From Candidatus Thiosymbion oneisti (GTDB lineage: Bacteria; Pseudomonadota; Gammaproteobacteria; Chromatiales; Chromatiaceae): a stretch of DNA of 32,666 nt. The position numbers and the translations under genes were made by a program. The stretch lies in NCBI RefSeq assembly GCF_900092655.1, contig NZ_FLUY01001691.1:1-32666 (forward strand), given 5' to 3'. Every line of letters starts with the position of its first letter. The first letter of the stretch is position 1. This document shows, piece by piece, positions 17,137 to 25,937 of this stretch. Below the pieces are notes generated by a model, which worked only from the letters and a program-made list of their open reading frames with translations, had not been told where the DNA came from and made no database searches.

Positions 17137-18614
17137 GCATTCGCCGCAACACCACCTATAATCTACTCGGGGCGGCCATTCCCTTTCCAGTATCGTTCGT
17201 TACTGTCCCGATCTACATCGGACTAATCGGAGAGGCGCGTTACGCCGTGCTGGCCATTGCATGGCTGTTGCTCGGCTACTTCGGGTTGTTCGATCTCGGG
17301 CTCGGGCGTGCCACCGCTCAGCGCATTGCCGCACTTGGTAACGCCGCCGCAGAGGAGCGCACGCGAACCTTCTGGACCGCGCTTATTGTGAATCTCGGTC
17401 TCGGCATCATCGGGGGCTTGCTCATATGGCCGGCCGCTGTCTACTTCTTCGAGAACCTGTTCAAGATCGAGGATGTCCTGCGCCCCGAGATCGAAGCCGC
17501 CGTCCCTTGGCTGATACTTGCGGTGCCGATGGCCACCACATCCGGTGTACTCACCGGCGCGCTTCAGGGCCGAGAGCGATTCCTCGAGCTGAACCTGATC
17601 TCTGTCTCGGGCACCGTGCTGTTCCAGCTGCTGCCGCTCTTCGCCGTGGTGGTTTGGGGGCCTGAGCTCGGTGTGCTGCTTCCCGCCGTACTGGCAGCAC
17701 GTCTGTTTACCCTGCTGATGTTGTTCCAACGCTGCCGACGCCACCTCTTTCGCGGGTGCGTCGTGGCCATTTCATCCGAACACGCAGGCCACCTCCTTCG
17801 CTTCGGGGGCTGGGTGACGGTGACCGCATTCGTGGATCCCCTGATGGTGATCTTCGATCGCTTCGTCATTGGGGCCGTGTTGGGGGCGAAGAGCGTTACC
17901 TACTATACCGTCCCCTTTCAACTGGCCGAGCGCGGTACCATCATTCCCAGCGCCCTGATATCCGCCTTGTTTCCCCGTTTCGCCGCTGTCACGCGCAAAG
18001 AGGAAGAACACCTTGCGCAGGAGGGAATGTGCTTGCTGGCGGTGGTCATGACTCCGCTCGTCGCTGCGGGTGTCCTGTTGATGGAGCCCTTCTTGGCGTG
18101 GTGGATCGGACCCGTCTTCGCCGAGCAATCGACCCCGGTGGGCCAGGTTATTTTTCTGGGTTTTTGGGTCAGGAACTTTGTAAGCATCCCCCTTTCACAG
18201 CTTCAGTCACGCGGGCGCCCGGATCTGGTTGCCAAGTGCCATCTGGTCGAGGTACTCCCTTACTTCGGCCTCTTATATCTGGGCTTGAGCGAGCTCGGCC
18301 TGGTTGGCGTGGCGGTGGCTTTTTCCCTGCGCGCCGTAGCGGACTTTGTGCTACTCGCCGGGCTCGCCGGTACCCTGCACCGTTCGCTGCACATACTGGC
18401 CGTGCCCGCATTTCTGCTTGCGGTAGCCTACGGAATCGCAGACCACACCACTGCCGGCCAACCTGAGTGGTATCTCTTGGTTACCGGTTACCAGCTTATT
18501 ACAGTAATCTGGGTGTGGCACCAAGCCCCGTCTTCCCTCCGCCAACTCACTCTTAGGGTGTTCAGGCGGTTAGCAAAGCACGGCCGCACAGCGAAACTCA
18601 AGGTACGCTCATGA
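17133..18614 (+). CDS. Wzx-type lipid-linked oligosaccharide flippase
   Basis: Moves undecaprenyl-linked repeat units across the inner membrane. The 493-residue product has about a dozen hydrophobic segments and starts MSIRRNTTYNLLGAAIPFPVSF, then YAVLAIAWLLLGYFGLFDLGLGRATAQ, the typical polysaccharide-biosynthesis/MATE-like N-terminus. The ATG at 17133 overlaps the ABC exporter stop (ATGA), and its own stop overlaps the next start (ATGA at 18611), so translation is probably coupled. This is the last gene of the GC-rich export block before composition drops. Confidence 0.92.
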   Translation: MSIRRNTTYNLLGAAIPFPVSFVTVPIYIGLIGEARYAVLAIAWLLLGYFGLFDLGLGRATAQRIAALGNAAAEERTRTFWTALIVNLGLGIIGGLLIWPAAVYFFENLFKIEDVLRPEIEAAVPWLILAVPMATTSGVLTGALQGRERFLELNLISVSGTVLFQLLPLFAVVVWGPELGVLLPAVLAARLFTLLMLFQRCRRHLFRGCVVAISSEHAGHLLRFGGWVTVTAFVDPLMVIFDRFVIGAVLGAKSVTYYTVPFQLAERGTIIPSALISALFPRFAAVTRKEEEHLAQEGMCLLAVVMTPLVAAGVLLMEPFLAWWIGPVFAEQSTPVGQVIFLGFWVRNFVSIPLSQLQSRGRPDLVAKCHLVEVLPYFGLLYLGLSELGLVGVAVAFSLRAVADFVLLAGLAGTLHRSLHILAVPAFLLAVAYGIADHTTAGQPEWYLLVTGYQLITVIWVWHQAPSSLRQLTLRVFRRLAKHGRTAKLKVRS

Positions 18615-19603
18615 ACGCACCTGACACCCAAATACTGGTTTCGATACTTACACCGACCTGGAATCGTGCATCCTATATCCGTCGTGTATGGGAGAGTTTG
18701 AAATCGCAAACTTGCAAAAACTTTGAATGGATCATAGCGGACGATGGATCTACCGACGATACGGAAAAAGTCGTCAGAGAATTATCAAATCACTCCGATT
18801 TTCCAATTGTGCTGATTCGTGCCGATTCACATGTGGGAAAAGCCTTTATGGACAACCAGGCAGTCGTGCAAGCGCAGGGGGAATTTATTCTATGGAGTGA
18901 TTCGGACGACTATTTGGCGCCAAATGCGCTTGAACGCTTGTTGGACACGTGGTTTTCTATTCCGCCAGACGTGCGTGACGACTATGTTGGCGTCACCGCC
19001 CTTTGTGCCACGGATGAAGGGGTTGTCGTCAACCCCTTTCCCGATGTAGAACAGACTGATGTCAGTTGGAACGACTTGGCTGGAATGCACAAAGTCACCC
19101 GGGATATGCTGTTTTTCACTCGGGCGAGCGCATTGAAGGCATGTCCGTTCCCGGAGGTCGATCTGGTCATCCCGGAAAGCGTGGTCTGGACGCAAATCGG
19201 ACACCGGAAGACAAGACTGATTTCAGAGGTCTTGATGATCAAAGAATATAAGGCGGACAATCGCATTTCATTCACTGGTTGTATGGCCTACAACCGAGGG
19301 CGTGCCTATGCGTTGGCGACCACTGAGAGAAATTTGCGGTCCTATACTCGGGGATGGAGAATCAGGGCGTGGCATTTGATTACGTTCCTTCGTTATAGTA
19401 TACATGGAGAGCTCGCGATGCGTGAGGTCTTGCGCTTGTGGGGTAATAATACCAGCCGATTTGCATTATGGGCATCACTCCCGGTTGCATGGTTACTTGC
19501 AATCAAGGATATGCGGCAGGGCAAGGTGAAAAAAACGCATCGAGAATTTCTGGCAGTACGAAACACTGTACAAACATATGTGGTTCGACTCGGTAAGGCC
19601 TAA
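18611..19603 (+). CDS. Family 2 glycosyltransferase
   Basis: Transfers a sugar from a nucleotide-sugar to the growing lipid-linked oligosaccharide on the cytoplasmic face. The 330-residue product has the GT-A fold start ILVSILTPTWNRASYIRRVWESL, the nucleotide-binding DDGSTDD (Asp44-Asp45) and the metal-binding DSDD (97-100). A later WTQIGHRKTRLISEVLMIKEY is typical of the acceptor side. The C-terminal 90 residues are basic with one hydrophobic patch. Start overlap with the flippase stop (ATGA) implies coupling. Codon choice is more AT-rich than in the preceding genes. Sugar specificity cannot be read. Confidence 0.92.
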   Translation: MNAPDTQILVSILTPTWNRASYIRRVWESLKSQTCKNFEWIIADDGSTDDTEKVVRELSNHSDFPIVLIRADSHVGKAFMDNQAVVQAQGEFILWSDSDDYLAPNALERLLDTWFSIPPDVRDDYVGVTALCATDEGVVVNPFPDVEQTDVSWNDLAGMHKVTRDMLFFTRASALKACPFPEVDLVIPESVVWTQIGHRKTRLISEVLMIKEYKADNRISFTGCMAYNRGRAYALATTERNLRSYTRGWRIRAWHLITFLRYSIHGELAMREVLRLWGNNTSRFALWASLPVAWLLAIKDMRQGKVKKTHREFLAVRNTVQTYVVRLGKA

Positions 19604-19607
19604 GCCC

Positions 19608-20228
19608 ATGATACGCACGATCATAAGAAAATATCGCACAATGCGTAAGATGATACGTGAAATAGGTTTTCTACGTACCTTGCGTATTACTGTGGACAAG
19701 ATAGCCCTCACATTACTTCAGAAAGTATACGGGTTCCATCCTGTTCATGTAATAACACCTCTTTCCGCAAGACCCTACCGGCATATCGTAGCCGACCTTG
19801 CAAACGGTTTAAAGCCACGCTGTGTAGTCGAGGTAGGATGTGGTCTAGGTATTATCCTATCATTGATAAGAGCTCCGAATCGCTTTGGCTATGATGTGGA
19901 CGAGGGGGCCATCAGGGCGGCTCGTTTACTTCGGCGCGGGGTGAGCTTTACCCATGGCGATATCACGACTGTCTCTCAGCGACCGATCGATGTGTTGATC
20001 CTGGTGAATTGGATACATGAATATAGTCCGGAGCAACTGGACATGTGGCTTTCGCCCATGCTTTCATATACATCGTATCTGCTTATGGATGCTATCGATC
20101 CGGATGGACCTGAGGGTTATCGGTATCGACACGATTTTAAATTTCTGGAAACCCGGGTCCGTCGTGTGGAAACTCGTCCGGTCCCGAACGAAACGCGAAG
20201 TATTATTTTATATGAAGTGACACTGTGA
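19608..20228 (+). CDS. SAM-dependent methyltransferase (class I fold)
   Basis: Probably methylates a sugar of the repeat unit or a precursor. The 206-residue product has motif I VVEVGCGLGI (residues 73-82), an acidic residue after strand 2 (YDVDEGAIRAARLL) and THGDITTV, giving a short Rossmann methyltransferase. After a basic amphipathic N-terminus (MIRTIIRKYRTMRKMIREIG) comes the catalytic core. I start at the ATG at 19608, four bases after the previous stop, with TAAGG upstream; the frame also runs back 10 codons inside the previous gene. Its stop overlaps the next start (GTGA). Substrate unknown. Confidence 0.78.
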   Translation: MIRTIIRKYRTMRKMIREIGFLRTLRITVDKIALTLLQKVYGFHPVHVITPLSARPYRHIVADLANGLKPRCVVEVGCGLGIILSLIRAPNRFGYDVDEGAIRAARLLRRGVSFTHGDITTVSQRPIDVLILVNWIHEYSPEQLDMWLSPMLSYTSYLLMDAIDPDGPEGYRYRHDFKFLETRVRRVETRPVPNETRSIILYEVTL

Positions 20229-21031
20229 ACACCCGGTATCTCATTCGTCTCGATGATGCATGTCCCACGATGGACGCTGTCAAGTGGGATGCATTGGAAT
20301 CCGTATTGGACGAATCCGGTATTAAGCCGTTGGTCGCCGTAGTACCTGACAACAAGGATTCAATGTTGGAGATAGATGGGTATGACCCCGCATTCTGGGA
20401 CCGGGTGCTTGATTGGCAGAAAAAGGGATGGACGATTGCCATGCATGGTTTTCAGCACTTGTTTCATCCGATTGAACGAAGGCGCTTGTTAATACCATTT
20501 TATGACCACAGCGAATTTGCGGGGTTGAGTGAGCAGGAGCAGGCCAAAAAGATTAGAAACTCCTGGCAATTATTTTTAGATAGAGGAATCGAGCCAACTG
20601 TGTGGATTGCACCAGCACATTGTTTCGACTTGGGAACACTTCGGGCGCTCAAAGCAGAAACTCCGATCCGTATTGTCAACGATGGTATTGCCTGCAAACA
20701 ATTCTATGAGCATGGGTTATATTGGATACCACAGCAGCTTTGGGCGCTGTCGAGAAAGCCTTTCGGCCTCTGGACGGTATGTTTGCACCCCAATAGCATG
20801 ACAGTGGAGCAGATCGAAGCGTTTAGAGATAAATTAACGTTGGATATATTTCGTTCACGCATCATCTCTATGGAAGAAGTGTATCTGCGTAAGCGTAAAA
20901 GGTCGCTGCTTGATCGTGCCTATTCAGTCTGGTTCTGGCAACGGGATGGAATATTCCGTGCCCTTTATCTGCTACGTAACCGATTAGGAGCAAGCGTATG
21001 GGAAAAATTGCCATTTTGCTCCCTGGTCTAA
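20225..21031 (+). CDS. DUF2334-like polysaccharide deacetylase-fold protein
   Basis: Likely acts on N- or O-acetyl groups of a sugar, although activity is not proven for this branch. The 268-residue product begins NTRYLIRLDDACPTMD, with the Asp pair (10-11) where carbohydrate esterase 4 enzymes bind metal. HGFQHLFH (His74, His78, His81) follows, with WIAPAHCFD further on. There is no signal peptide, so it would be cytoplasmic. The start is GTG at 20225 overlapping the methyltransferase stop (GTGA). The last 34 bases overlap the next gene, which is more than usual here. Low-GC relative to the flanking export genes. Confidence 0.75.
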   Translation: MNTRYLIRLDDACPTMDAVKWDALESVLDESGIKPLVAVVPDNKDSMLEIDGYDPAFWDRVLDWQKKGWTIAMHGFQHLFHPIERRRLLIPFYDHSEFAGLSEQEQAKKIRNSWQLFLDRGIEPTVWIAPAHCFDLGTLRALKAETPIRIVNDGIACKQFYEHGLYWIPQQLWALSRKPFGLWTVCLHPNSMTVEQIEAFRDKLTLDIFRSRIISMEEVYLRKRKRSLLDRAYSVWFWQRDGIFRALYLLRNRLGASVWEKLPFCSLV

Positions 21032-22101
21032 AATTTGGTGGAACCGAACGGGTTGCGCTCAATCTAGCGCGTGCGCTGAAAGCTGAAGGATTCAAGATCG
21101 ACTTCATCTTGATGAGCTATGAAGGCGAATTTTTGGCGGAGGTTGAAAGCAGTTTCGATGTGTACAATCTTAGATGCAATCGAACCTGGAAACTGCCGAT
21201 GCGGCTTCTGGATTATATTGTTAAGCAGAAACCCAATGCGCTTATTTCGAGTTTTTGGAAGCTCAACGTGTGTGCCTGTCTGACACGGCTCGTCTATCCA
21301 GCATATAATTTAATCTTGTGGGAACATTCCCAGCCCAGCAAAAGTGATAATAGTCCTACCTGGCTCTACAGTATCAGCGCCAGTCTGATTTATCAGCTCG
21401 CAACCAAGGTGGTGGTCGTATCCAGTGATGTATTCAAGGATGTGCAGCGTATCACCCTGGGATTAGGCCGCAAACTGATGATTATTTTCAATCCGATATC
21501 ACCCCCGGCTTTTAAATTATGTATCTCACAGCGAGAAGCTGGGAGCCGTAATATCATCTGGGTCGGACGGCTGGACGAGCCCAAAAACCCAGGTTTAATG
21601 CTGGACACGTTCGTGACGTTGATAAAAAAGGATAAGAATTATCGACTCGACTTTGTGGGGGACGGAAAACTACGCTCTGAGCTGGTACAGCATTCTCTGT
21701 CGTTGGGACTGCAGGATAATGTGCGTTTTTTAGGATTTCAGCCGGATCCCTATGTATTGATGGCAAGGGCGAATTTACTTGTGCTTACTTCGAATCGGGA
21801 AGGTTTTGGTAATGTATTGGTGGAAGCCCTTTATTGCGGGCTGCATGTAGTCAGCACGGATTGCGGAGAGGGTATTCGTGATATCCTGCAGAATAATCGC
21901 TATGGTTCGATCGTGCCCACCAAAGATAAGAACGCCTTAGCTACTGCCATCGAACGCGAATTCGATACCGAACATGACTGGCGTGCCCAAATCGAAGGAG
22001 CGCAACGGTTTCTGCCGCGGAAGATCGCGTTGCAGTTTATTGAAGCATTGGACCTGGGGAGAACATCGATGATATACCCTCGAGGTGATAGCCAAGTTTA
22101 G
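20998..22101 (+). CDS. Family 4 glycosyltransferase (GT-B fold)
   Basis: A retaining sugar transferase of 367 residues. The N-terminal domain begins KIAILLPGLKFGGTERVALNLA, a typical GT4 start with the glycine-rich acceptor loop. The C-terminal domain has IIWVGRLDEPKNPGLML, then NREGFGNVLVEALYCGLHVVSTD, the EX7E donor-binding region. The ATG at 20998 lies inside the end of the deacetylase-like gene. Base use is clearly lower in GC than the export genes (29 G+C of 60 in 21001-21060). A truncated GT2 starts two bases after the stop. Confidence 0.92.
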   Translation: MGKIAILLPGLKFGGTERVALNLARALKAEGFKIDFILMSYEGEFLAEVESSFDVYNLRCNRTWKLPMRLLDYIVKQKPNALISSFWKLNVCACLTRLVYPAYNLILWEHSQPSKSDNSPTWLYSISASLIYQLATKVVVVSSDVFKDVQRITLGLGRKLMIIFNPISPPAFKLCISQREAGSRNIIWVGRLDEPKNPGLMLDTFVTLIKKDKNYRLDFVGDGKLRSELVQHSLSLGLQDNVRFLGFQPDPYVLMARANLLVLTSNREGFGNVLVEALYCGLHVVSTDCGEGIRDILQNNRYGSIVPTKDKNALATAIEREFDTEHDWRAQIEGAQRFLPRKIALQFIEALDLGRTSMIYPRGDSQV

Positions 22102-22102
22102 C

Positions 22103-22537
22103 ATGCGTCCATTAGTTTCTATTATCGTCATTACCTACAATCAGGCGGATATCACAGAAGAAGCCGTAAGGTCCGTGTTTGCGCAGGATTATAGCCCACT
22201 TGAGATTATCCTGAGCGATGACTACTCGACCGATCATACATTCGATATTCTGCGGAGATGTAAGGATCACTATGAAGGCCCTCACGAAGTCACGCTCAAT
22301 AGAAACTCGACTAATCTTGGTATTGGTAAGCATTGGGACACGATAAGTAGGCAAGCAAATGGGGTCCTCATCGTTCATGCCGCAGGAGACGATGTTTCTG
22401 TTCCTTTGCGGTTCATTGTAAATTTCCGAGTCGATCCGCTATCAATTCAGCAACATACTGTGACCCATTATTATTTAAATGAGCAAAGTCGTACATATAG
22501 GCATTATCCTGGGGAACTTCTTTCTCTAAATCTATAA
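22103..22537 (+). pseudogene. Family 2 glycosyltransferase, truncated after the DXD motif
   Basis: The product starts MRPLVSIIVITYNQADITEEAVRSVFAQDY and has SDDYSTDHTF and AAGDDVS, so the nucleotide- and metal-binding parts are intact. Family resemblance ends near codon 102 (about 22405-22412). From there the frame reads the reverse side of the SGNH gene and stops at 22537. The acceptor half of a normal GT2 (250-350 residues) is missing and is not found elsewhere in the window. It is almost certainly inactive. The break coincides with the end of the minus-strand SGNH gene at 22413, which marks a recombination junction. Confidence 0.85.
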
Positions 22538-23534
22538 CTTGCACCTTATTGATTCGCCCTGTCTTTCTTATCGAATCATTCATTTCATCATAGAGGTCTT
22601 TAAACTCGTCATAAGCAATCCCAACATTATTTAGCTTAGGCATCAACGCATTGACTATCACCGCGTCCGGCCTATCCTTAAATCTGCTTGCTTGAGTCAT
22701 TAATATTGGCATGATTTTATGTACCCTGGAAATATTTATAAAATTCAACAAGCTCCTTTCAAATTGTTGAAGTATCTCGTGTTTATTTATGGTTAACTGT
22801 TTTCCGCGTAAATGCGTGAACTCATCGCCAACGAGGAATCTCATTTTCAATACTACCAGTTTATCATATAGTCTTGGAAGTGCAGCCCTTGTGATGGCTT
22901 TTATGCCGCTGGAAAACCCATACACCTTCATTAGAGATTTATTTGGATTTTCATTCCAATAATTCTTTTCATACAGCAATACATTCAAGTCATTAACATT
23001 ATGCATCATAATGGCAACATCAGGATCTAACGCTATTCCCTTGTTCAACAAGATATTATTCGAATGCATCGAGTTATTACCGCTTACTCCGCTATTGAAT
23101 GAGTTTACTTTCCTTCCATTTTCCTCCAACAACCTACCGACCAGATAGGGGAACCTATTATTCTCATCAACATAGAGGCACTCTGTTGTGGAACCACCGA
23201 GGAAAATTATCGTTAAATCCGGTTTATCGTGTATTCTTGAGGGGTACAGGTAACCATCCCTATCAATCTCAAATCTGTACTCTTTTTTAACCAAGCTATC
23301 CGTATTTTCCATATATGCATCAGTAGGAACAAGATACTTCACAGTTGAGGGAATATGCTCTCTGAGTCTGATATTTCTGACTTCAGTACCTATTTTTTCC
23401 ATTGGTGTTACCAGGGACAATAGTATTTCAGCTCCATAAATGGAAAAAAGCAGCGATACCGCCAGAAAAATCACTGACATCTTCTTGGGGTGCTTTTCAA
23501 CTCCAGTGTGTTTCATTTTTCTTATTTTTCTCAT
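22413..23534 (-). CDS. Membrane-anchored SGNH/GDSL-family hydrolase or acyltransferase-like protein
   Basis: Likely adds or removes acyl groups on the polysaccharide in the periplasm. The 373-residue product has an N-terminal membrane anchor (about 19-42), then SGNH blocks: GGSTTE with Ser115, NSGVSGN (147-153), HNVND (178-182) and the C-terminal DFAH pair (Asp349, His352). I chose the ATG at 23534, which has a GAG purine run upstream; an ATG at 23516 and others up to 23594 are possible. It is the only minus-strand gene in the glycosyltransferase run and extremely AT-rich (16 G+C of 60 in 22921-22980), unlike its neighbours. It overlaps the truncated GT2 at its 3' end and faces away from the next gene with a 58-base gap. 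Confidence 0.85.
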   Translation of the reverse strand: MRKIRKMKHTGVEKHPKKMSVIFLAVSLLFSIYGAEILLSLVTPMEKIGTEVRNIRLREHIPSTVKYLVPTDAYMENTDSLVKKEYRFEIDRDGYLYPSRIHDKPDLTIIFLGGSTTECLYVDENNRFPYLVGRLLEENGRKVNSFNSGVSGNNSMHSNNILLNKGIALDPDVAIMMHNVNDLNVLLYEKNYWNENPNKSLMKVYGFSSGIKAITRAALPRLYDKLVVLKMRFLVGDEFTHLRGKQLTINKHEILQQFERSLLNFINISRVHKIMPILMTQASRFKDRPDAVIVNALMPKLNNVGIAYDEFKDLYDEMNDSIRKTGRINKVQVIDLEKEVPQDNAYMYDFAHLNNNGSQYVAELIADRLGNLQ

Positions 23535-23592
23535 AGTTATTTCTCGGACTTGGCTCATAATCACATGGAACTGACATCTAAGGTTATCCCAC

Positions 23593-24705
23593 ATGACTGA
23601 TTCATTGAATCCATCAGCATCTCGCGTTATGCTGGTGACGAAAAAACTGCAGGATTTCCCAGTGGGTGGCCGGGAACAATTGTGTAAGCTGAATTATAAT
23701 GCACTTATGGAAATTTTCGGCGACAGATTGGTAGTGTATGAATTGCCTGGGAATAAATTGCAGGCAAATGTCATCAGGAAGATTTTTAGCGGGCACATCG
23801 ATGGGTTGAATAACGAGGTTATCGGCGAGGCGCAGAAAAAGATCAAAGAAGAGGGTATCGGCATTATTTTTGTGGATGGCTCGAATTTGGGTGAATTCGT
23901 TAAAGTCACCAAGCGAAATTTTCCGGAAATTTCAGTGAGCACCTTTTTCCATAATGTGGAAGCGAGATTTTTCTTGGGGGCGTTGAGACATTCCAAGACA
24001 TTACACGCTCTGGCAGTATTGATTGCCAATTACCTCGCGGAACGTAAAGCCGTGCAATACAGCGACAAGATCATTTGCATGACCAACCGAGACAGCAGTC
24101 TTCTTCAGAGGCTCTATGGCCACCCGGCGACACATCTTTCAGCGCTGGCCATAAGAGACCAACTCCCGCCGGGCAGCGGTGTAACCACGCGTGTGCTGCA
24201 CGGGAAATATGCCCTGTTTGTAGGGGGAGCCTTCTATGCCAATCGTGCGGGTATATCCTGGTTCGTAAGACACGTGGTTCCTCATATTCGGATTAAGACA
24301 TGCATTGTCGGTAAGGGGTTTGAAAAGCTGAAGCACGAGCTGGGGCACGCAGGGAAGGTCGAGATTGTCGGTGTAGTGGACTCGCTTGCCGAGTGGTATC
24401 GGGATGCTCATTTCGTAATCGCTCCGATATTTGATGGTTCAGGGATGAAGACCAAAGTCGCGGAGGCATTGATGCATGGTAAGAAGATCATTGGCACGCC
24501 TGATGCGTTTTCCGGTTATGAAGACGTTGTGGAACATGCAGGCCAGGTATGCACGACAGCCGATGAGTTCATCGCAGCGATCGGTAGCGCCAAGGACGAG
24601 ATTGTAAGTTCGTTCGATCCAGAGTTGCGTATGCTCTACGAGGAAAAGTATTCTCATCCGGCTGCGCGGTCGCGTCTCGCTGGAATTCTTTGTTCAGTCG
24701 AATGA
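23593..24705 (+). CDS. Glycosyltransferase, GT-B fold (group 1/family 4-like)
   Basis: A 370-residue protein starting SRVMLVTKKLQDFPVGGREQLCKLNYNAL, where GGREQL replaces the usual glycine loop. The C-terminal half reads HGKYALFVGGAFYANRAGISWF and IAPIFDGSGMKTKVAEALMHGKKIIGT, close to the GT4 branch that uses a GSGMKxKxxEAL motif. The ATG at 23593 has TAAGG nine bases upstream. Composition is intermediate between the SGNH gene and the GC-rich genes that follow. After it, 140 bases (24706-24845) contain no gene. Sugar donor unknown. Confidence 0.88.
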   Translation: MTDSLNPSASRVMLVTKKLQDFPVGGREQLCKLNYNALMEIFGDRLVVYELPGNKLQANVIRKIFSGHIDGLNNEVIGEAQKKIKEEGIGIIFVDGSNLGEFVKVTKRNFPEISVSTFFHNVEARFFLGALRHSKTLHALAVLIANYLAERKAVQYSDKIICMTNRDSSLLQRLYGHPATHLSALAIRDQLPPGSGVTTRVLHGKYALFVGGAFYANRAGISWFVRHVVPHIRIKTCIVGKGFEKLKHELGHAGKVEIVGVVDSLAEWYRDAHFVIAPIFDGSGMKTKVAEALMHGKKIIGTPDAFSGYEDVVEHAGQVCTTADEFIAAIGSAKDEIVSSFDPELRMLYEEKYSHPAARSRLAGILCSVE

Positions 24706-24845
24706 AGTTACCAAGAGAAACATGGGTTCTTATGGTCGGAGCATTTGCAGACTCGTGTCAAATGCTGATTGCCGGAAAGGTATCGGGTTTCCACCAAGTA
24801 TTGGTATGGCTGGCTTCGAGGTACACTTGAGGCGGAGTTGCCAAA

Positions 24846-25937
24846 GTGAAGATTTGTATTGCGGTCTCGCTATATGACATTTCCGGTGTTCCACTGGCAC
24901 AACTCCGATTTGCACAAGCGTTGGCAAACAAGGGATACGAAGTCGATCTGGTGATTGGCCATATCGATCCTCAGTACGATTTCCCTGAGCTGGCGGGTGT
25001 GACCGTACGCGAGCTGGAGCGACGACATGTCCGAGGGATGCTATTGCCCTTGTGGCGTTATCTGCGGTCGGATCGGCCGGACGTGGTGTTTTCCGCCGAA
25101 GACCATCTCAACGCCGTCGTGTTGCTCGCCGCGATCATTGCCGGCTCGCAGGTGAAGATCAGCGGTTCGTCGCGGGTGACGCCGTTCGATACCTACTCCA
25201 ACGTGCCCTTCACGAAACGCTGGGTGCTGAAGCAGTTCATGCGCGCCGTCATGTGGCGGGCGGATGCGTTGACCTGTGTATCGAAGGACATGGTAGACCA
25301 ATACCGGCGTGTGTTCGATACACCTCCGCACGTCTGTGTCTACAATATCGTAGATGACAAGTTGTCGCGCCTCAGAATGCAGGAGGCGGTGGAACACGGA
25401 TGGCTCATCCACAAGCAGGAGCCGGTACTGATCGCAGCGGGTAGCTTAGCACCCTGGAAGGGTTTTGCGGACCTGATTCACGCCATGAAAGAGCTTTCCC
25501 GCAGCAGGCGTGCCCGCTTGATAATACTCGGGGATGGGCCACTGCGGATTGAACTGGAAGCCTTGATCGCCGAGCTCGACTTGACGAATCTTGTCGACCT
25601 GCCCGGGTATGTCGGGAACCCACTGAAATACTTTGCACGTGCGGACGTCTTTGTGTTGTCTTCCCATGTCGAGGGCCTGCCGAATGTACTCGTCGAAGCC
25701 ATGATGTGCGGGTGCACACCGGTCTCCACAGATTGCCCTACCGGTCCCCGAGAAATCCTTCAGGATGGAAAATACGGATACCTGGTTCCCATGCAAGATC
25801 CGATCGCCTTGGCGGCTGGTATTGAACAGGCCCTAATCAAGCCGATACCAAAGGACCGCCTTGCTGAGGCAGTGCAGCCATTCGACGAGGAAACGGTCAT
25901 TAAAAGGCATCTCGAGATCCTGGGCCTTACCAGATAG
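24846..25937 (+). CDS. Family 4 glycosyltransferase
   Basis: A 363-residue GT-B enzyme. It starts KICIAVSLYDISGVPLAQLRFAQALANKGYEVDLVIG. The donor domain has LIAAGSLAPWKGFADLIHAM, LIILGDGPLRIELEAL, and SSHVEGLPNVLVEAMMCGCTPVSTDCPTGPREIL with the EX7E pair. The start is GTG at 24846, supported by GGAG about nine bases upstream. GC-rich codon use resumes here, so it belongs with the older frame of the locus rather than the AT-rich insert. Confidence 0.93.
   Translation: MKICIAVSLYDISGVPLAQLRFAQALANKGYEVDLVIGHIDPQYDFPELAGVTVRELERRHVRGMLLPLWRYLRSDRPDVVFSAEDHLNAVVLLAAIIAGSQVKISGSSRVTPFDTYSNVPFTKRWVLKQFMRAVMWRADALTCVSKDMVDQYRRVFDTPPHVCVYNIVDDKLSRLRMQEAVEHGWLIHKQEPVLIAAGSLAPWKGFADLIHAMKELSRSRRARLIILGDGPLRIELEALIAELDLTNLVDLPGYVGNPLKYFARADVFVLSSHVEGLPNVLVEAMMCGCTPVSTDCPTGPREILQDGKYGYLVPMQDPIALAAGIEQALIKPIPKDRLAEAVQPFDEETVIKRHLEILGLTR

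Follow-up and report, generated by a model that had tools for sequence, protein, structure and literature searches.

Genes of the exopolysaccharide locus

The window, the whole stretch of 32,666 nucleotides that was analysed, is one entire contig of Candidatus Thiosymbion oneisti, the assembly of which (4.33 Mb, 1891 contigs) is fragmented yet near-complete. Profile scans identify the window as an exopolysaccharide locus, with family matches for export, chain-length, polymerase, flippase, and amidotransferase proteins. As in XrtA/PEP-CTERM-associated exopolysaccharide loci, genes matching the XrtA-associated ATPase and amidotransferase models occur together with export and chain-length families. 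However, the XrtA-specific scores lie below the curated cut-offs, and no exosortase was identified among the scanned ORFs of the window. A phosphoribulokinase gene was also detected in the Pfam scan, as would suit purple sulfur bacteria. Base composition varies along the locus, with a GC content of 0.56-0.64 (about 0.60) in the backbone genes, 0.46-0.49 in the glycosyltransferase block at 18611-24705, and 0.376 in the SGNH gene described below. The block also contains a DUF2334 gene (20225-21031), which is polysaccharide-deacetylase-like and has a weak PF01522 match. The features under discussion are as follows.

18611..19603, plus strand: GT2a, left backbone gene, common to genome G316 of the same family (48% identity)
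20998..22101, plus strand: GT4up, GT4-type glycosyltransferase, with its stop 1 base upstream of the GT2 start
22103..22411, plus strand: 5′ remnant of the GT2 gene, 103 codons, GDD motif kept (Pfam profile positions 1-90 of 168 and alignment with seven homologues)
22411..22415, no strand: left junction, with the last GT2-homologous codon at 22409-22411 and the SGNH stop codon at 22413-22415
22413..23594, minus strand: SGNH/GDSL-family gene, 393 aa as the longest ORF (Pfam PF13472, E 8.9e-12; alignment, hydropathy, and motifs)
23593..24705, plus strand: GT4dn, GT4-type glycosyltransferase, intact, 57% identical to its G316 counterpart
24739..24840, plus strand: probable FkbM methyltransferase remnant, about 34 codons with one internal stop, intact at the equivalent place in G316
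24846..25937, plus strand: GT4c, right backbone gene, common to G316 (64% identity)

Genome searches used a sample with one genome per species, comprising, with the genome under study excluded, 54 relatives, 209 family genomes, 273 class genomes, and 397 phylum genomes.

The truncated GT2 gene and its left junction

As judged from profile and alignment, the GT2 gene is truly truncated. The Glycos_transf_2 profile (PF00535) matches residues 6-98 with 60.2 bits against a cut-off of 23.3, covering only positions 1-90 of its 168. The DXD-like GDD motif at residues 95-97 is present, so the nucleotide-sugar-binding N-terminal half is retained, as the original prediction had stated. The C-terminal acceptor/catalytic half is absent, since homology stops at R103 (codon 22409-22411), well inside the ten or so bases from the SGNH stop codon that had been predicted. 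The open reading frame itself has 144 residues and extends to 22537, its last 41 residues being encoded by DNA antisense to the SGNH gene.

The end point was located with homologues. Relatives of GT2 were found in 112 plasmid records, from which seven proteins of 282-352 aa were fetched and aligned with the window GT2. The nearest, carried on plasmids of other bacteria, show 39-49% identity across about 95-124 residues. R103 is invariant in all eight rows, the common stretch ends there, and every one of the seven full-length homologues continues past this point. When the homologues were compared with the window by tblastn, the alignments ended at 22411, 22399, 22411, 22411, 22492, 22399, and 22414, which places six of the seven ends at 22399-22414. 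GT2 homology runs without a frameshift to within 1-2 bases of the SGNH stop, and the left junction, as read from these alignments, is sharp. Since the homologues are variable just past R103, a few further GT2 codons could hide in the 3′ end of the SGNH gene, placing the junction at 22411 to perhaps 22430.

A profile built from the C-terminal parts of the seven homologues found no GT2 C-terminal remnant in a six-frame search of the window (best E 3.7), and in a leave-one-out control all seven held-out homologues were recovered at E 1.1e-13 or better. A missed frameshift, with the GT2 tail continuing in another frame, was rejected on the basis of this search and its positive control. At the sensitivity of a search with the full alignment, which gave seven matches, no orphan GT2 C-terminal half was seen in the assembly either.

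It might be supposed that unrelated pieces were joined at 22411-22415 during assembly, an error that the original prediction had named as one way in which it could fail. In favour of such a chimera, the assembly is in 1891 contigs, and the junction, present in no other genome, is known from the assembly alone. Nevertheless, the junction sequence has a single match in the whole assembly and neither side is repeated on a second contig, giving no sign of a mis-join caused by repeats. The junction is not bridged by any repeat, the missing half of GT2 was not found elsewhere in the assembly, and the edge coincides with a stop codon within a compositionally variable locus, all of which make a chimera very unlikely.

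The other way in which the prediction could fail, an intact homologue of the short GT2 with the same end in another genome, was also not encountered. At E 1e-9, 24 of the 273 other class genomes have a GT2 match, and in all 25 of the other matches the frame is 286 aa or longer. Among the 55 relatives searched with the genome under study included, three listed frames are shorter than 200 aa, namely those of G003 (150 aa), G054 (171 aa), and G026 (168 aa, with an internal stop). The closer comparison covered the G003 frame, which was rejected as a counterpart because it is a different GT2-type stretch, 31% identical over residues 3-76 only, and its own frame ends later. It is hardly credible that the 144-residue product is a working short enzyme or regulator. 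The frame is indeed open and begins 1 base past the upstream stop; against this, it is missing the acceptor half that is present in all seven fetched homologues, the class-wide matches are uniformly long, and its last 41 residues are antisense to another gene. Being without the acceptor half, the fragment is most likely dead and its sugar would no longer be added. One glycosidic addition has thus probably been lost, as the original prediction had proposed.

The proposed alignment of the junction with an intact GT2 could be carried out with the full-length homologues, while an intact orthologue was not found. No intact GT2 orthologue or arrangement was recovered among relatives, class genomes, plasmids, or named genomes (five distant matches), the neighbourhoods covered being those of the fetched loci. 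Searches with GT4up in the family and with GT4dn in the family and class likewise revealed no orthologous arrangement, and the backbone is common to G316 only.

In three of the seven fetched GT2 homologue loci, all on plasmids (L029, L030, and L031), FdtA/QdtA-type cupin and DegT-type aminotransferase genes lie nearby. Such neighbours would presumably suit a 3-amino-3,6-dideoxy sugar as the donor. In the window itself, no gene of the FdtA/QdtA or DegT type was noticed.

The SGNH gene, its edges, and its probable function

The SGNH gene has a foreign base composition and a reversed orientation, in agreement with the original prediction. It lies on the minus strand with a GC content of 0.376 (GC3 0.40), compared with 0.463 in the GT2 fragment and 0.491 in the next gene. 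Its product scores 46.3 bits with PF13472 (cut-off 32.9). G133, S135, D369, and H372 are invariant in 10 of 10 aligned rows, which accounts for the catalytic Ser of block I and the Asp-x-x-His of block V; with Ser135, Asn201-Asp202, Asp369, and His372 in place, the triad is intact. A hydrophobic stretch at about residues 41-59 in the hydropathy profile suggests an N-terminal membrane anchor. For the five top-scoring homologues the alignment reaches residues 389-392 of 393, past which they continue for 7 to 28 residues more, indicating that the C-terminus is natural or has lost at most a short unconserved tail. A sequence search against solved structures produced no significant hit (best E 0.28), and a single-sequence structure model was too poor for use in assessing the flavodoxin-like SGNH fold (mean pLDDT 34.9).

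The right edge is less tightly placed than the left. It had been claimed that the SGNH gene occupies the space precisely as far as the next gene, and this holds for the longest ORF, whose start at 23594 overlaps the start of GT4dn at 23593. However, the homologues begin nearer residues 13-27, making ATG 23534 or 23516 as likely a start; with either, the divergent genes would stand 58-76 bases apart, and the exact fit is thus partly a product of ORF calling. The G316 counterpart of GT4dn aligns from window residue 12, and ATG 23629 is thus possible for GT4dn as well. With these alternative starts, the right boundary falls within about 23517-23628. Neither edge is placed tightly by GC segmentation, the solutions within 2 log units starting at 22110-22476 and ending at 23536-24082. 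Repeats in 22000-24000 are short only and at chance level, including a 10-base direct repeat (23473/23570) that by our own estimate is close to the chance expectation in 2 kb. No insertion sequence or target duplication was recognised at the edges in the repeat listing for 22000-24000 and the Pfam matches of the listed ORFs. The insert carries one ORF, the SGNH gene, and a promoter scan gave 5 matches where 5.2 were expected from shuffling.

A homologue and a donor had been proposed as objects of search, of which the first was found and the second was not. The closest relative found (L094, genome G711) shows 28% identity across 363 positions (E 4.6e-36), and its neighbourhood, read by eye, does not resemble a polysaccharide locus; identity to the aligned relatives is 18-28% throughout. 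At E<=0.001, with the genome under study excluded, relatives occur in 0 of 3 other genus genomes, 2 of 54 relatives, 8 of 273 class genomes, and 17 of 397 phylum genomes. As these are few and all distant, the gene appears to be sporadic. Plasmids gave two matching records at 25-27% identity, and no close donor was found among plasmids, named genomes (which held no relative), relatives, class genomes, or phylum genomes.

On the strength of its predicted features, the SGNH protein is probably a membrane-anchored protein of the periplasm that acts on O-acyl groups. It would most likely trim or shift such groups on the exported polymer or on a lipid-linked unit, as suggested by its family, its anchor, its complete triad, and the gene surroundings of some relatives. 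These relatives are found in a capsule locus (L095) and beside carbamoyltransferases (L096 and L100), and the domain also occurs fused to a sulfotransferase (L034:5161-6855) and, with an MBOAT gene next to it, to an AMP-binding domain (L097:5601-8267). Such settings support work on glycans and are silent on the direction of the reaction.

The original prediction had the enzyme adding an acyl decoration, so that a single event would have dropped a sugar and gained an acyl group. One published account has SGNH and AT3 domains taking part in glycan O-acetylation, the membrane AT3 domain being thought to hand the acyl group to the SGNH domain (PMC9833829). This background, the intact triad, and one AT3 gene elsewhere in the genome are consistent with acylation. 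However, a Pfam scan of 21 window ORFs gave no match to AT3 or MBOAT, leaving the SGNH gene without an adjacent or fused partner among them, and a search of the genome for MBOAT was negative. The one AT3 match is in a 713-residue frame on a different contig (contig 1815); from its length, this frame may hold an SGNH domain of its own. The window protein resembles the SGNH/GDSL hydrolases of surface glycans (PF13472; AT3-SGNH domain PF19040) in its Ser, Asp-x-x-His, Gly, and Asn motifs and its N-terminal anchor. Unlike the AT3-SGNH proteins, it has no AT3 fusion, reaches only 20.6 bits with PF19040 (cut-off 27), and is as divergent from its relatives as given above. Removal of acyl groups is equally possible for the enzyme, and the absence of a partner from the window, of MBOAT from the genome, and of AT3 from anywhere near ranks removal or rearrangement ahead of addition. 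A combined switch of sugar for acyl group is thus quite improbable; the lost sugar is its inferred half, and the added decoration finds no support.

Probable recombination and gene turnover in the locus

The truncation, the foreign and reversed SGNH gene, and the sharp junction together give good support to the recombination scar that had been predicted. We favour, with a probability of about 0.75, the explanation that illegitimate or short-homology recombination in a variable part of the XrtA-type exopolysaccharide locus introduced one AT-rich gene, that of the SGNH protein, and that the last two-thirds of the GT2 gene were lost at the landing site, as part of gene turnover in the locus. The truncation, the composition, and the intact SGNH gene are observed directly, and their origin in one event is inferred. 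The GT2 fragment left behind would be inactive, while the SGNH protein would edit O-acyl groups in the periplasm, and the sugar coat was probably changed by the event.

A less likely, though still credible, history involves two or more events, in which the 3′ part of GT2 was first deleted or decayed and the SGNH gene arrived later, or the AT-rich stretch was trimmed later. Slow decay of GT2 before the arrival of the SGNH gene would leave an identical picture, and neither an intact orthologous locus nor a donor was found. The absence of a GT2 C-terminal remnant from the window fits this history, as does the FkbM remnant at 24739-24840, which is a gene cut down in the same locus without replacement. 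On the other hand, GT2 homology that reaches 1-2 bases from the SGNH stop without a frameshift is most simply explained by one junction.

The FkbM remnant came to light through G316, the only one of the 209 other family genomes with a close GT4dn; at E 1e-15, GT4dn was found in 0 of 273 other class genomes. The G316 contig (L062, G316:C347) carries GT2a, GT4dn, and GT4c at the identities listed above and in the same order as the window. In G316, a single hexapeptide transferase separates GT2a from GT4dn, where the window has five other genes; the space from GT4dn to GT4c holds two FkbM methyltransferases in G316 and measures 140 bases in the window. Of these 140 bases, a run of 34 codons, interrupted by one stop, matches the beginning of the second G316 FkbM protein at 25.4 bits, compared with 20.0 for the best of 500 shuffles. 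No other site in the window scores as high (whole-window E 0.039). The G316 gene is intact at L062:3531-4337, with a PF05050 match. The single score is modest, and it is the syntenic place that makes a remnant likely. A further scar is thus probable from this comparison, giving a locus with more than one. This suggests continuing gene turnover between fixed backbone genes rather than a designed switch. The cut GT2 is absent from the G316 contig, and no traces of G316 genes were found beneath the SGNH gene.

Events of such a kind are ordinary in surface-polysaccharide loci, and the present one is a clean example: a glycosyltransferase cut after its donor-binding half adjoins an intact, foreign, reversed carbohydrate-esterase-like gene. 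In common with the serotype-switch type of turnover in capsule, O-antigen, and exopolysaccharide loci, it has a foreign AT-rich modification gene, a truncated glycosyltransferase, a conserved backbone with variable slots, and gene-content differences from a relative. It differs in being known from one genome rather than from a strain pair. A capsule acetyltransferase gene interrupted by a transposase gene is described in one earlier study (PMC4994043). Within the open-licence literature, nothing specific to this exact event was found, only general papers. Nothing points to a new mechanism. Together with the nearby second remnant, the scar illustrates that surface-polymer structure can drift in environmental bacteria through lost additions and gained edits.

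A broader proposal, which we consider doubtful, is that the place to the left of GT4dn serves as a slot for polymer-decoration genes (a hexapeptide transferase in G316, an SGNH hydrolase in the window), where gene-sized swaps trim the flanking genes (GT2 on the left, FkbM on the right) and GT4dn with its neighbours would serve as anchors for modular exchange. If so, sugar additions, methyl groups, and acyl edits would be exchanged as modules in environmental exopolysaccharide loci.
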